A stretch of DNA of 33,285 nt. It comes from an uncultured Saprospiraceae bacterium. GTDB lineage: Bacteria > Bacteroidota > Bacteroidia > Chitinophagales > Saprospiraceae. Position 1 is the first letter of the stretch. Every line of letters begins with the position of its first letter. Below, piece by piece: positions 26,144-32,279 of this stretch. A program made the translations under genes and the position numbers. Location: assembly GCA_937961455.1 (NCBI GenBank), contig CALGNN010000179.1, positions 1 through 33,285 of the forward strand, in the 5' to 3' direction. The notes under the pieces are model-generated. The model did no database searches. It saw only the letters and a list, made by a program, of their open reading frames with translations, and was not told the DNA's origin.

Positions 26144-27058
26144 ATGGCTAATAAGTCCTTTTGGGAAGGTTCAAAGCATTATCTCTGTGAGCGAGACTTA
26201 GCTCAAAGTTTTCATATGGCAAGGGTATTAGGGATGCCGCTTTTAATAGAAGGAGAACCTGGCACCGGAAAAACAGAATTACCCATTCAATATGCAAACG
26301 ATACGAATTCTGAGCTTTTTGTCTATCCTGTGGGTTCGAAAAGCAATATTGAACAATTCGTAGCTAGGTTTGATCACGTAAAATATCTAAGAGACTCGCA
26401 GATTGAAGTTTTAAATGCGCAAAGAGAAGAGAAAGGTTTAAAGACCTCATTGAGTACTGGAGGAAGAAATCCAAATAACTTAGCTGACTATGTTGCTAAA
26501 GGACCAGCCGCTAAGGCTTTTTCTAGTCCAAATAGTGTATTGCTAATCGATGAGATTGATAAAGCTCCAAGAGAGTTTCCAAATGATTTGCTCTATGCCT
26601 TGAGTCATAGAAAATTTGTAATGCCAGAGTCAGGAGAAATTCTTGAGATATCGGAAGAAGAAATGCCGGCAATTGTGATTACCTCTAATAGGGAACAAGA
26701 ATTACCAACGGCTTTTAAAGGAAGATGCATCTATCACTACATACAATTCCCCGATGCAGACACTATGCGATTGATCATCGAAAAACATTTTGAAAAATTA
26801 GATGATAAGGTAATTAATGTTGCGCTAGATATTTTCTATCATCTTAGAACCATTGGTTTGGAACGCGCACCAACTACAAGAGAGTTACTTAATTGGTTAA
26901 AATATAGCAAGCAATTCTCATCAAAAGAAGCCATTGAGAAAATGGAAAAACTAGATGGTCTGGGTGCACTTGTAAAAACCCAAACAGACTTAGAGCGGGT
27001 ACAAAGAATGATATTAACGTCTCCAGAAGATTTTAAAAAGAGATCTAATCCTAATTGA
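26144..27058 (+). CDS. MoxR-like AAA+ ATPase
   Basis: The 304-residue ATPase of the MoxR/AAA_5 type has Walker A GEPGTGKT (37-44), Walker B VLLIDEID (about 132-139) and a sensor/arginine-finger area around ELPTAFKGRCIYHYIQFP. These proteins act as chaperone-like remodelling enzymes together with a VWA-domain partner, often to insert metal cofactors or mature protein complexes. The partner here is the CoxE-like gene just downstream. The stop TGA overlaps the ATG of a 16-codon mini-ORF (TGATG); the end of this gene is the first copy of a 50-nt tandem repeat. The substrate of the pair is unknown. Confidence 0.9.
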   Translation: MANKSFWEGSKHYLCERDLAQSFHMARVLGMPLLIEGEPGTGKTELPIQYANDTNSELFVYPVGSKSNIEQFVARFDHVKYLRDSQIEVLNAQREEKGLKTSLSTGGRNPNNLADYVAKGPAAKAFSSPNSVLLIDEIDKAPREFPNDLLYALSHRKFVMPESGEILEISEEEMPAIVITSNREQELPTAFKGRCIYHYIQFPDADTMRLIIEKHFEKLDDKVINVALDIFYHLRTIGLERAPTTRELLNWLKYSKQFSSKEAIEKMEKLDGLGALVKTQTDLERVQRMILTSPEDFKKRSNPN

Positions 27059-27108
27059 TGTTTAAAAAACTTGCAAAAGATTTTAGAATGAAATCAAACC
27101 CTAACTAA
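27058..27108 (+). other. 16-codon mini-ORF created by the junction repeat (first)
   Basis: It encodes MFKKLAKDFRMKSNPN, a fusion of the first residues of the VWA protein and the last residues of the ATPase. It overlaps the ATPase stop by one base (TGATG) and the next mini-ORF by one base (TAATG). It may simply pass ribosomes on to the VWA gene; a peptide function is not supported. Confidence 0.5.
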
Positions 27109-27158
27109 TGTTTGAAAAATTACCAAAAGATTTTAGCATAAAATCTAATACTAACTAA
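27108..27158 (+). other. 16-codon mini-ORF created by the junction repeat (second)
   Basis: It encodes MFEKLPKDFSIKSNTN, again a VWA-start/ATPase-end hybrid. It overlaps the preceding mini-ORF and the VWA gene start by one base each (TAATG). Its first six residues are identical to the true VWA start (MFEKLP). Confidence 0.5.
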
Positions 27159-28486
27159 TGTTTGAAAAACTACCAGAAACATTTAGATCTCATGGCTTAC
27201 AAGCAGACGTAAGAACACTCCTATTATTCAGAAAAGCCATTGACTCCAATTTAGTAAAAACACTTGGGGACGCTTATCAAGTACTTAAAGCATTCGTCGT
27301 CAAGGATCCAAGCTCTTTAGGTCCTTACACAAAGGCTTATTATGAATACTTTCTCAATATTGATATTCATCCTGGTGAACGGCTTAATGATGCCATCATA
27401 AGATCGGAGAGTTTTAGAAATTGGAAAGAAGACTATCAAGCAAAAAATGACGATACTGAAAATTGGACAATGGATGATTGGGTTGACAAATTTTTATCAT
27501 TGGTACATCTTACTCAATATGATATTAAAAGAGTCATTGATGGTAAATCAATATTTGATAAAGATGACCCTCATTTAAAAGATGAAATTTCGGATGGCGT
27601 CGAAGAAGATGCTAAAGAACACCGTCTAGATACGATGGCTGATTATTCTGAACTCAGTCTAGAAGAACTCTTAGAACGAATGGAGCAAATAGCTGATGAG
27701 CAAAAGTCCCGGCATGATGGAGGAAGTCATTGGATTGGAACTGGAGGGATATCTCCATACGGTCATGGAGGCGCGGCAAAAGGAGGAATCAGAAAAGGAG
27801 GAACCGGAGGAGGTAAATTAGCAAGAAAAGTTTTAGCGGATCCTAATTTTTTTCCAGTAGACCGTGATGCTTTAATCAATGACAATAATGTAGATGCAGC
27901 ATTAGCTTCCCTTAAAGGGATTTTCGAAGAAAGCGCACAGGACTTTCTAGATGTAGACAAAACCATCAAAGAAGGCTTAAAAAGAGCAGGTTTATTTTTG
28001 CCTGAACTGACAAAAAAGTTTGATGAAAAACTTCAAGTCATATTACTCATTGACAATGGAGGCTGGTCAATGACACCCTATGTAAGAACCATCCAAGAGC
28101 TTTTCAAAAAAATGAAAACCCGTTTCGCTCAAGATTTAGAGACCTATTATTTTCATAATACGATATATGATAAGGTATACAAAGATCCTCGTCGAACAAA
28201 AGGAGTTTACCTTGAGCGATTGCTTAAAAAAGACCCCAACTATAAAGTCTTTATTATTGGAGATGCTGCGATGGCGCCTTATGAATTGAGTAGATTGAGT
28301 GTCGGAAGCCTCAAAGCCATTCAAGACAAATTCAAGAAAACAGTTTGGTTAAATCCTGAACCTGCACGATACTGGAATCACACATTAACCACTAATATCA
28401 TAAAGCAAATTTTCAAGATGTACCCATTGACCCCAAGGGGAATTGAAAAGGCTGTGCAACATATTAATAAAAAGACCAGCAAATAA
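27158..28486 (+). CDS. CoxE-like VWA-domain protein, partner of the MoxR-like ATPase
   Basis: The 442-residue product has a helical N-terminal half with acidic stretches, a glycine-rich linker (about 190-228: GTGGISPYGHGGAAKGG, then IRKGGTGGGK) typical of CoxE-like proteins, and a C-terminal von Willebrand A-type domain (about 285-425). The metal-site motif is D299-N-G-G-W-S304-M, a departure from the standard D-x-S-x-S. Together with the MoxR-like ATPase it should form a remodelling or metal-insertion machine in the cytoplasm. The start is fixed by the one-base overlap with the preceding mini-ORF, so its translation is probably coupled to that of the ATPase through two short relay frames. 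Confidence 0.82.
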   Translation: MFEKLPETFRSHGLQADVRTLLLFRKAIDSNLVKTLGDAYQVLKAFVVKDPSSLGPYTKAYYEYFLNIDIHPGERLNDAIIRSESFRNWKEDYQAKNDDTENWTMDDWVDKFLSLVHLTQYDIKRVIDGKSIFDKDDPHLKDEISDGVEEDAKEHRLDTMADYSELSLEELLERMEQIADEQKSRHDGGSHWIGTGGISPYGHGGAAKGGIRKGGTGGGKLARKVLADPNFFPVDRDALINDNNVDAALASLKGIFEESAQDFLDVDKTIKEGLKRAGLFLPELTKKFDEKLQVILLIDNGGWSMTPYVRTIQELFKKMKTRFAQDLETYYFHNTIYDKVYKDPRRTKGVYLERLLKKDPNYKVFIIGDAAMAPYELSRLSVGSLKAIQDKFKKTVWLNPEPARYWNHTLTTNIIKQIFKMYPLTPRGIEKAVQHINKKTSK

Positions 28487-29555: not shown

Positions 29556-29625
29556 TTTTTTGGCTCTTTGGCTTTTTGGCTTTTTGGCTTTTTGGCTTTT
29601 TAGCTCTTGGCTCTTTACTCTTTTT
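29556..29625 (+). repeat. 8-bp TTTTTGGC tandem array upstream of PEP carboxylase
   Basis: About eight imperfect copies of an 8-bp unit, TTTTTGGC, with variants TCTTTGGC and TTTTTAGC, fill most of the gap between the amidinotransferase-superfamily gene and the carboxylase gene. No reading frame or hairpin explains it. A related array lies after the carboxylase gene. Confidence 0.9.
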
Positions 29626-29651
29626 AATAGAATACTTTATTGTATAAAATT

Positions 29652-32174
29652 ATGTCTAAACAAATACTTAGCGATACCAAAAAGAAATACCAGATCTACA
29701 ACAGTATGTTCTTAAACCTGTCTTATCAGGAAAGCAACCATATTGGTCATCTGATTCCTTTACTAGCAGATTTTGCAAAAGACGCATTGGCTTTAGGTAA
29801 AAGTCCAATGGTCATATTAGATGAATTTTTACTAGCACAAAAAGAAATAATTGGCGAAGAATCAATTTCATTTATGTTTAAAGTGATTCAATATGTTGAA
29901 AGACAAGTAGTGCTTTTTGACAGTATTGAAGATGCTAGTTCTCCTTATGACTTAGAGGACCAAAACTCATATTTGGTTGCAGATTTTTTTAAAAATATTC
30001 CTAAATCGAATTCTAAAGAAGAACTGCTGGCTAAATTAAATGACTTTAGCGTTCGGGTAGTTTTGACAGCGCATCCAACCCAGTTTTATCGACCTCCTGT
30101 TTTAGACATCATTTCAAAATTGCGTAAAGCAATCGGTAAAAGCAATGTTGATAAAATTGATGATTTACTTCATCAGCTGGGACTTACTTCTTTGGTTAAT
30201 TCTAAGAGTCCAACTCCTTTGGACGAAGCCAGAAATATATTGCACATATGCAGATATGAATATTATGATGCCATTGGAAAATTGTATCAAAAATTACAAA
30301 GTGAAATAGAAGGATTTGATAATGCTAAAATTGTGTCTTTAGGATTTTGGCCATGTGGTGATAGGGATGGGAACCCTTACGTCACCCACGACACGACCAT
30401 GTCTGCAATAGATGAACTGAGGATGACACTCATGAAATGTTATTACAAAGATCTAAAGGCGATCTCTTCTAAATTAACCTTCCAAGCTGTTGAACCTTTA
30501 TTAGAAAAACTGACAAAGCAAGTATACAAGGCGATGTTTCAAAAAGATATAATCATTGATCCAGATCAGATGATTGTTGATTTAGAAAAAGCTAAACAAT
30601 TACTTATTGACAAATACGAAAGTCTTTACCTCTCTGATATTGAAGCCTTGCTAGCTAGACTCAAAATTTTCAAAAAGCACTTTGTGATACTTGATATAAG
30701 ACAAGATCATAGCATTCATATAAAAGTGATTAATTGGATCTTGAAAAAAAATGGAAGAATCGAAAACACTTATGAGGAATTAGATCAAGACGAGCTCATT
30801 GACTTATTATGCAATCAACAACTTACGATTCCTAATGAATCATCAGAGGACCCACTAGTCAATGACACCCTATTGAACATTGCCCAATTAAAAGATATAC
30901 AAAAGAAAAATGGAAAAGAAGCATGTGAACGTTACATCATTAGTAACTCTGAGGATATTTATGCTGTCCTATTTGTTCTAGGATTACTTCGATGGACCTA
31001 CCCAAATGAGACACTGGATTTTGATATTGTACCCTTATTCGAAACCATGAAAGGGATGGATGCCTCAGAAGCAATTATGGATCAATTATTTAATATTCCA
31101 AGCTATAAAAAGCATATGGAAGAAAGGAAAAAGCTCCAAACCATTATGCTGGGATTCTCAGATGGAACTAAGGATGGAGGTTATATGAAAGCCAATTGGT
31201 CCATTTATAAATCGAAAGAAAGTTTGACAGCTATCTGTAAAAAAAATCAAATTGAAGCCATCTTCTTTGATGGTCGAGGAGGACCACCTGCAAGAGGCGG
31301 TGGAAAAACTCATCAGTTTTACGCTTCTCAAGGACCTACCATAGCTAATGAAGAAATCCAGCTAACGATTCAAGGTCAAACCATAACAAGCACCTATGGT
31401 ACGCAAGAAAAATTTAATTACAATGCCGAACAAATGATCAGTTCTGGATTGTATAATTTTCTTCATCCCGACAACTCAAGCATATCAAACGAAGAAAGAG
31501 CTTTGATAGAAAAGTTGAGCGAATTGAGTTTTAAAAAATATCAAGCATTAAAGTCTCACAAAGACTTTCTTCCTTATATAGAAAATATGACTACCCTGAA
31601 ATATTATTCCATGGCTAATATCGGGAGTCGACCTGCAAAGAGAAATACGGGCAAAAAATTAAGTCTAAAAGATTTGAGAGCTATCTCTTATGTAGGATCA
31701 TGGAGTCAATTAAAGCAGAATATTCCTGGCTATTATGGGATCGGAACTGCCCTTGAAAAATTAGTGGAATTAGGTCATCTACATGAGTTGCAAGATTTGT
31801 ATAAAAATGTCCCTTTCTTTAAGACACTTATTAATAACTCTATGATGTCATTAAACAAATGCTACTTCGCATTGACCTCCTACATGAAAGAACATGAAGA
31901 CTATAAGGAGTTTTGGCAATTGCTCTTTGAAGAATATGAAAGATCCAAAAAAATGACTTTGATCTTAACAGGATTTGAAACCCTTATGCAAGACGAGCAA
32001 AAATCAAAAGAGTCCATTAAGATTAGAGAAGAAATTGTACTGCCTTTACTTATTATTCAAAATTATGCATTACAAAAACTTCAAAGTCTTAGTGGAGAAG
32101 AAAGAACCGTCTGGGAAAAATTAGTGGTGCGATCCCTATATGGCAATATTAACGCTAGTAGGAATTCGGCGTAG
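29652..32174 (+). CDS. ppc: Phosphoenolpyruvate carboxylase
   Basis: The enzyme carboxylates phosphoenolpyruvate with bicarbonate to oxaloacetate, refilling the citric acid cycle. I take ATG at 29652 (840 residues); an in-frame TTG at 29640 would add four. Active-site signatures are LTAHPTQ (H141), GDRDGNP (236-242), FFDGRGGPPARGGG (538-551), where the usual FHGRGG has Asp for His, and NIGSRPAKR. The C-terminus reads NINASRNSA where most family members end in RNTG. Length is slightly short but within the range I expect for this phylum. It is flanked on both sides by arrays of related 8-bp repeats and lies between two guanidino-enzyme genes. Confidence 0.95.
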   Translation: MSKQILSDTKKKYQIYNSMFLNLSYQESNHIGHLIPLLADFAKDALALGKSPMVILDEFLLAQKEIIGEESISFMFKVIQYVERQVVLFDSIEDASSPYDLEDQNSYLVADFFKNIPKSNSKEELLAKLNDFSVRVVLTAHPTQFYRPPVLDIISKLRKAIGKSNVDKIDDLLHQLGLTSLVNSKSPTPLDEARNILHICRYEYYDAIGKLYQKLQSEIEGFDNAKIVSLGFWPCGDRDGNPYVTHDTTMSAIDELRMTLMKCYYKDLKAISSKLTFQAVEPLLEKLTKQVYKAMFQKDIIIDPDQMIVDLEKAKQLLIDKYESLYLSDIEALLARLKIFKKHFVILDIRQDHSIHIKVINWILKKNGRIENTYEELDQDELIDLLCNQQLTIPNESSEDPLVNDTLLNIAQLKDIQKKNGKEACERYIISNSEDIYAVLFVLGLLRWTYPNETLDFDIVPLFETMKGMDASEAIMDQLFNIPSYKKHMEERKKLQTIMLGFSDGTKDGGYMKANWSIYKSKESLTAICKKNQIEAIFFDGRGGPPARGGGKTHQFYASQGPTIANEEIQLTIQGQTITSTYGTQEKFNYNAEQMISSGLYNFLHPDNSSISNEERALIEKLSELSFKKYQALKSHKDFLPYIENMTTLKYYSMANIGSRPAKRNTGKKLSLKDLRAISYVGSWSQLKQNIPGYYGIGTALEKLVELGHLHELQDLYKNVPFFKTLINNSMMSLNKCYFALTSYMKEHEDYKEFWQLLFEEYERSKKMTLILTGFETLMQDEQKSKESIKIREEIVLPLLIIQNYALQKLQSLSGEERTVWEKLVVRSLYGNINASRNSA

Positions 32175-32176
32175 TT

Positions 32177-32279
32177 GGTTTTTGGCTGTTTGGGTTTTTG
32201 GCTATTTGGCTTTTTAGCTTTTTGGCTATTTAGCTGTTTGGGTTTTTGGGTTTTTGGGTTTTTGGGTTTTTGGGTTTTG
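32177..32279 (+). repeat. 8-bp TTTTTGGC/TTTTTGGG tandem array downstream of PEP carboxylase
   Basis: The array has about a dozen imperfect 8-bp units. It begins three bases after the carboxylase stop, first as TTTTTGGC/TATTTGGC/TTTTTAGC and then as TTTTTGGG. Its last part has five GGG runs with an exact 8-nt period (32240-32242, 32248-32250, 32256-32258, 32264-32266, 32272-32274), each separated by five T. Confidence 0.9.

Follow-up and report, generated by a model that had tools for sequence, protein, structure and literature searches.

A MoxR-family ATPase gene and a CoxE-like VWA gene of an uncultured Saprospiraceae bacterium are connected by three tandem copies of a 50-nt unit that holds their junction, and in each copy the stop codon of one reading frame overlaps the start codon of the next. 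The window, i.e., the whole stretch of DNA that we analyzed (33,285 nucleotides), is a complete 33-kb contig of a draft genome of 4.62 Mb in 250 contigs. That the array results from tandem duplication of the junction is near certain. We favor, with somewhat better than even confidence, the fuller reading that in-phase duplication of an overlapping junction gave rise to a serial relay leading to CoxE, in which the encoded peptides are idle and no selection is needed. The coordinates of the features are collected in Table 1.

Table 1. Features of the MoxR-CoxE junction array and of the nearby short-unit arrays, in positions of the window
Feature	Positions	Strand	Remarks
MoxR-family AAA+ ATPase gene	26144..27058	+	ORF, 304 aa, ends ...SPEDFKKRSNPN, stop codon TGA
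Repeat unit 1 (MoxR tail and mini-ORF 1 head)	27023..27072	+	
Repeat unit 2 (mini-ORF 1 tail and mini-ORF 2 head)	27073..27122	+	
Repeat unit 3 (mini-ORF 2 tail and CoxE gene head)	27123..27172	+	
TGATG, MoxR stop/mini-ORF 1 start, one-base overlap	27056..27060	+	sequence
Relay mini-ORF 1	27058..27108	+	MFKKLAKDFRMKSNPN, then stop
TAATG, mini-ORF 1 stop/mini-ORF 2 start	27106..27110	+	sequence
Relay mini-ORF 2	27108..27158	+	MFEKLPKDFSIKSNTN, then stop
TAATG, mini-ORF 2 stop/CoxE start	27156..27160	+	sequence
CoxE-like VWA gene	27158..28486	+	ORF, 442 aa, head MFEKLPETFR
Microhomology, MoxR side (CCAGAAGATTTTAAA)	27023..27037	+	codons P-E-D-F-K; 11/15 identical to 27173-27187
Microhomology, CoxE side (CCAGAAACATTTAGA)	27173..27187	+	codons P-E-T-F-R; partial fourth copy begins
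Arrays of 8-nt unit (TTTTTGGC; GGTTTTTG)	29557-29616 and 32177-32278		

Tandem Repeats Finder delimits the array to positions 27023 to 27184, with a period of 50, 3.2 copies, a score of 203, and 0% indels. The self-similarity score at a lag of 50 is 58, compared to at most 13.5 when these 400 bases are dinucleotide-shuffled 200 times, and the array gives a single match in its own draft genome. Pairwise comparison of the three copies gives 12, 11, and 7 differences per 50 positions (24, 22, and 14%); with copies this divergent, an assembly duplicate could be ruled out. Stop and start codons have one base in common at all three junctions (TGATG, TAATG, and TAATG). Between the MoxR and CoxE genes lie two mini-ORFs of 16 codons each, which are chimaeras with a CoxE-like head and a MoxR-like tail. 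The distance from the MoxR stop to the CoxE start is 99 nt and is bridged by the mini-ORFs only, and the two protein genes neither overlap nor lie within about 20 nt of each other, as would be expected of a coupled pair. The preliminary description of this DNA had reported the 50-nt MoxR/CoxE unit in three tandem copies, the one-base TGATG or TAATG overlap in each of them, the two relay mini-ORFs, and a divergence of 14 to 24%, and it proved correct in every detail that we checked. Three units bring the CoxE frame back to the MoxR frame (the two starts are 1,014 bases apart), whereas CoxE would be out of the MoxR frame with one or two units.

The upstream protein matches the Pfam model AAA_5 (E value, 5.4e-12) and the NCBIfam model MadB_ATPase (2.2e-29), the latter at 102.6 bits, which is below the family cutoff of 475. 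We take it to be a MoxR protein, following the preliminary description and general knowledge of the family. The downstream protein on its own matches VWA_CoxE at an E value of 0.02, below the Pfam cutoff; this model is matched by 9 of 12 aligned CoxE orthologues at an E value of ≤1, the best being 2.1e-8. A structure of the CoxE protein predicted with moderate confidence (pLDDT of 64.5) had no PDB match at an E value of ≤0.001. Its weak matches comprise chain G of two NorQ-NorD entries (E value, 0.007; TM-score of 0.37 to 0.39 by target length), other VWA domains, and several unrelated folds, and a search for solved relatives by sequence returned only a designed protein (E value, 0.52). Taken from profile matches and a predicted model, these results point to a MoxR-type AAA+ ATPase with an adjacent VWA-domain partner, and the gene names hold. 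The CoxE protein also contains a putative metal site, D-N-G-G-x-S-M, at positions 28034 to 28078 of the window (residues 293 to 307), whose residues D299, N300, G301, G302, S304, and M305 are invariant in all 12 orthologues. The metal motif of VWA domains is D-x-S-x-S, from which the CoxE protein differs here. A link to a defence system was considered and dropped; the sole PADLOC result was a match of MoxR to TRIP13, and a weak one (E value, 4e-4). In the known MoxR AAA+/VWA pairs NorQ-NorD, CbbQ-CbbO, and RavA-ViaA, as presented in the available part of PMC9976466, an AAA_5 gene is likewise directly followed by a VWA-like gene, although the CoxE-like similarity of the window protein itself is weak.

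How the array may have come about is indicated by undoubled junctions in other genomes. A bare TAATG stands between MoxR and CoxE in ten relatives, for example, in L005 (...CCCAATTAATGTTTGAAAAACTC). In many relatives, the MoxR tail carries a P-x-D-F/Y motif and the CoxE head a P-x-x-F motif. The P-to-P spacing is exactly 50 nt in six of the seven TAATG relatives in which the motifs were matched, L094 with 32 nt being the exception; the other three of the ten had no motif match and were dropped. In the window, this spacing is 150 nt, i.e., three units, and within the unit the MoxR-side and CoxE-side motifs occupy the same codon phase. Their DNA identity (11 of 15) is the highest among 29 junctions with a motif match. 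Across junctions, the motif identity averages 7.7, versus 3.3 at other in-frame positions, the former mean being inflated by the motif search, for which P/A and F/Y are a requirement.

We propose that an ancestral junction of MoxR and CoxE, with stop and start overlapping by one base, would have undergone one tandem duplication and then a second, through slippage or unequal recombination at two microhomologies that lie in phase and 50 nt from each other (P-E-D-F of MoxR and P-E-T-F of CoxE). Each exchange would add 50 nt, that is, a frame opening with the CoxE start and closing with the MoxR stop, with no further change. Since both motifs are in the same codon phase with respect to the junction, every further unit would automatically be an open frame of 16 codons, and slippage in phase would account jointly for the length and boundaries of the unit, for the chimaeric peptides, and for the preservation of the overlaps. 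We regard the slippage route as likely, the event itself being one that we infer. The position of the window, alone on a long branch, does not establish the TAATG relatives as its nearest, and its overlapping ancestor is therefore reconstructed from its own units. The earlier suggestion that the array exemplifies how short overlapping genes arise is supported, at least as a plausible route. More generally, very short overlapping ORFs could appear in a single step where the facing ends of two genes contain in-phase microhomology and slippage occurs, and slippage between such gene ends would yield a ready-made relay ORF.

In order to place the junction in its family context, we collected CoxE at an E value of ≤1e-100, which was present in 108 of the 398 genomes searched from the larger family (the genome of the window included). 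Three of these 108 genomes (G284, G281, and G158) were left out, as the match lay at a contig end or was without the N terminus. Two loci without a CoxE match and 16 with only a weak one were set aside before junctions with the same sequence were merged. For 16 distinct loci, no MoxR was found in the stretch retrieved, which in some cases stops at a contig end. L100 was too short for the CoxE tree, and L046, L048, L125, and L129 contributed distances only and stood outside the repeat scan; for L125, whose distance is −110, the MoxR end was probably misread. CoxE identity to even the nearest relatives is no higher than 69%; these all belong to other genera than the window, whose protein has a branch to itself in the CoxE tree, 0.44 changes per column long.

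With distance taken between the first bases of the MoxR stop codon and of the CoxE start codon, the measurable junctions of 91 relatives comprise 4 overlaps of more than one base, 10 TAATG junctions, 42 distances of 3 to 24 nt, 11 of 25 to 100 nt, and 24 above 100 nt, so that 35 of the 91 are wide (25 nt or more). On the CoxE tree, the junction states require at least 33 changes over 106 rows, compared to 52.8 with shuffled labels. This shows that the junction distance is labile, though clustered on the tree. Even in genus g33, which holds most of the closest relatives, distances range from 2 to 21 among ten genomes; with this spread and the lability of the distances, the family as a whole therefore does not keep the exact overlap. 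When 88 distinct junctions, the window's included, were subjected to a best-lag scan, no extra units and no stop/start array were seen in the 87 relatives with a readable junction. A relay chain of ATG starts was likewise absent from the 32 relatives whose wide gap could be read, making the window the only case among 33; when GTG and TTG starts are allowed, relay chains are also found in L109 and L136. Given the 35 wide junctions, 32 of them read and without an ATG relay, the gene pair does not need coupling. Repeats of other kinds do occur in MoxR-CoxE spacers: L060 and L123 contain short-unit arrays, and the spacer of L011 (about 282 nt) contains two copies of a noncoding 50-nt direct repeat, whose unit length is probably the same as that of the window by chance.

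How ribosomes reach CoxE depends on the distance that they can bridge after termination. In the available part of a reporter study in Haloferax and E. coli, reinitiation is nearly abolished by about 20 nt, and in E. coli it is down by 80 to 90% or abolished at 38 nt (PMC10666635); a review mentions a study in which a spacing of up to +25 nt was without effect (PMC12548453, likewise from the part available). The CoxE start lies 99 nt past the MoxR stop, which by these published limits is too far for direct hand-over from MoxR to CoxE; therefore, either the mini-ORFs or a start of its own is needed.

As a measure of an independent start, we counted adenines at −3, −6, −12, and −13, which are reported to promote initiation in Flavobacterium johnsoniae (PMC6847099, in the part of the paper available). 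The window's CoxE start has none of the four, mini-ORF 1 has none, and mini-ORF 2 has one, while other genes in the window have 0 to 4. Among the relatives, wide junctions average 2.29 of these signals, with zero in 3 of 35, versus an average of 0.60 and zero in 5 of 10 for TAATG junctions; the difference in zero counts gives a Fisher P value of 0.008, for rows that are related and not independent. The means are 1.77 at distances of 3 to 12 (n = 26), 1.88 at 13 to 24 (n = 16), 2.75 for longer overlaps (n = 4), and 1.67 where MoxR was not seen (n = 15, L053 being left out as a duplicate or for lack of upstream sequence). With zero adenines, as at TAATG starts, the window's CoxE start is thus more similar to these than to independent starts. 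Its weak context could be a relic of an overlapping ancestor with MoxR codons upstream. The average of 2.75 for longer overlaps means that not every coupled-looking start lacks the signals. The predicted unpaired fraction at the CoxE start is equivocal (0.15 from −3 to +5 and 0.57 from −15 to +14). Over the 106 relatives, adenines rise with the MoxR-CoxE distance (L004, L078, and L054 versus L005 and L055), except in longer overlaps, and MoxR/CoxE junctions form a natural series on which coupled and independent starts without Shine-Dalgarno signals could be compared.

Strong independent initiation at the VWA start, which had been named beforehand as an observation that would speak against hand-over, was not seen, the start looking weak by sequence (0 of 4 adenines). 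We infer that ribosomes finishing MoxR would reach CoxE by three successive termination-reinitiation steps rather than by one. As judged from the DNA sequence, we think that the relay probably works. In that case, it would offer a clean object for determining the efficiency of reinitiation per step where mRNAs, as in this phylum, are devoid of Shine-Dalgarno sequences.

The intact state of all frames had been taken as a sign of selection in the preliminary description, a claim that our simulations leave unsupported. With the majority of the three copies as the ancestor, there are 9 changes in the 99-nt intergene stretch and at least 15 over all three copies, gene ends included. In neutral simulations with random placement of changes (20,000 each; the ranges cover two mutation biases applied to two different starting sequences), both mini-ORFs remained intact in 25 to 40% of the runs with 8 to 10 changes (34 to 40% at 8 and 25 to 31% at 10), in 20 to 25% with 12, in 13 to 17% with 15, and in 6 to 9% with 20. 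Intact relays are therefore expected in 25 to 40% of neutral histories with 8 to 10 changes, and retention is no evidence of use. The probability of observing no indel alongside 9 substitutions is 0.26 to 0.76 for assumed indel-to-substitution ratios of 0.15 to 0.03, and the product of retention and no-indel probabilities is about 0.07 to 0.30 for 8 to 10 changes, a weak pull towards selection that is not zero. Synonymous changes amount to 4 of 9, against 22% expected, which is not significant (P = 0.11). Selection is not needed to explain the intact frames and is not demonstrable for the array, which provides weak evidence that selection acts on ribosome hand-over.

The peptides themselves show no sign of constraint. 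Arginine is present in 41 of 41 MoxR tails with a D/N-F/Y motif (among 88 tails, the window's included), and both mini-peptides have lysine instead. Proline 6 of CoxE is invariant in alignments of 12 and of 17 rows, which share some loci; mini-ORF 2 keeps it and mini-ORF 1 has alanine. The amino acid sequence of the mini-ORFs is not conserved, as it would be in functional genes for small proteins, and judging from these residues the peptides look functionless.

The same observations bear on the competing explanations. The array could be a neutral by-product, formed by the same duplication, with CoxE started de novo and the mini-ORFs left as idle remnants that have not decayed. Chance retention at the simulated rate for 8 to 10 changes fits this history, as do the replacement of the invariant tail arginine by lysine in both mini-peptides, the alanine in place of proline 6 in mini-ORF 1, the wide gaps tolerated by many relatives, which presumably start CoxE de novo, and the noncoding tandem repeats in the spacers of L060, L123, and L011. 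However, a CoxE start devoid of all four adenines, a state found in just 3 of the 35 wide-gap relatives, speaks against a de novo start, and the frames have stayed intact despite 14 to 24% divergence, with no indel. We consider this explanation possible, if on the unlikely side. A functional role for micropeptides, e.g., as mimics of the MoxR tail and CoxE head that compete at the interface of the two proteins, is in keeping with the chimaeric make-up of the mini-ORFs from both gene ends; it is, in our estimation, highly improbable, with residues that are invariant at the gene ends changed in the mini-ORFs and the mini-ORFs absent from every relative read.

Alternatively, the array might be a selected attenuator: if some ribosomes were lost at each hand-over, three in series would lower VWA relative to MoxR, which would fit six MoxR-type subunits per VWA subunit. 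The relay chain is intact, as this would demand, and the synonymous changes exceed expectation (4 of 9 versus 2), albeit not significantly. For NorQ and NorD, the available part of PMC9976466 gives proportions consistent with a hexamer and one NorD, a ratio that is NorQD's own. Yet selection has left no significant sign, and the array is absent from all 87 relatives with a readable junction. As no relative read shares the array, the attenuator is without comparative support, and we judge it improbable. Much the same doubt attaches to an evolvable version of it, in which the module would copy itself in phase, each step would lower the VWA:MoxR ratio, and selection would keep the array. Under the reading that we favor, an in-phase duplication that yields a serial relay, lower VWA output is possible as a side effect, each hand-over of less than 100% efficiency cutting VWA relative to MoxR.

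The individual junctions are of an ordinary kind. Termination-reinitiation overlaps of −1 (TAATG or TGATG) are described in the available parts of two studies, according to which the subunits of heteromeric complexes are enriched in such overlaps (Huber et al. 2019, PMC6728339; 2023, PMC10666635). All three junctions of the window have this arrangement, and the downstream gene likewise encodes a likely partner protein. Unlike an ordinary −1 overlap, the window has three in series with two mini-ORFs between them, made by tandem duplication. The closest precedent that we found for gene-bridging repeats that contain small coupled ORFs comes from mycobacteria, whose MIRU is a short repeat with a small ORF coupled to the neighboring gene, across which the ribosome can be delivered (PMC12548453, as far as the available text describes it). 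In both cases, the small ORF in the unit overlaps neighboring start and stop codons. MIRUs, in the same text, are apparently mobile and insert at start codons with a spacing of −4 nt, whereas the array of the window is a local copy of its host junction, at one genomic locus and with 1-nt overlaps. The regulatory minigene of axe-txe is another very short ORF that alters the translation of a downstream operon gene in cis, depending on distance and frame (PMC8708949); in contrast to the array, it has two codons and, in the part of the report available, neither an overlapping series nor a junction duplication, and its authors suggest protection of the mRNA. The array is thus a real variant of stop/start coupling in one genome, itself built from ordinary −1 overlaps. 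Among the titles and abstract openings listed from the open-license literature, none dealt with tandemly duplicated stop/start junctions, which is no proof of absence.

Repeats elsewhere in the genome and in the window were also inspected. Trios of TAATG spaced 30 to 60 nt apart have 80 matches in the genome of the window, compared to 24 for a reversed control. No repeat like that of the window was present at 30 of these 80 loci (L141 to L170), the best score being 12 versus 58; the trio pattern excludes TGATG and for that reason cannot find the window array itself. Farther downstream in the window, the phosphoenolpyruvate carboxylase gene (29640 to 32174) is flanked on both sides by arrays of a similar 8-nt unit.
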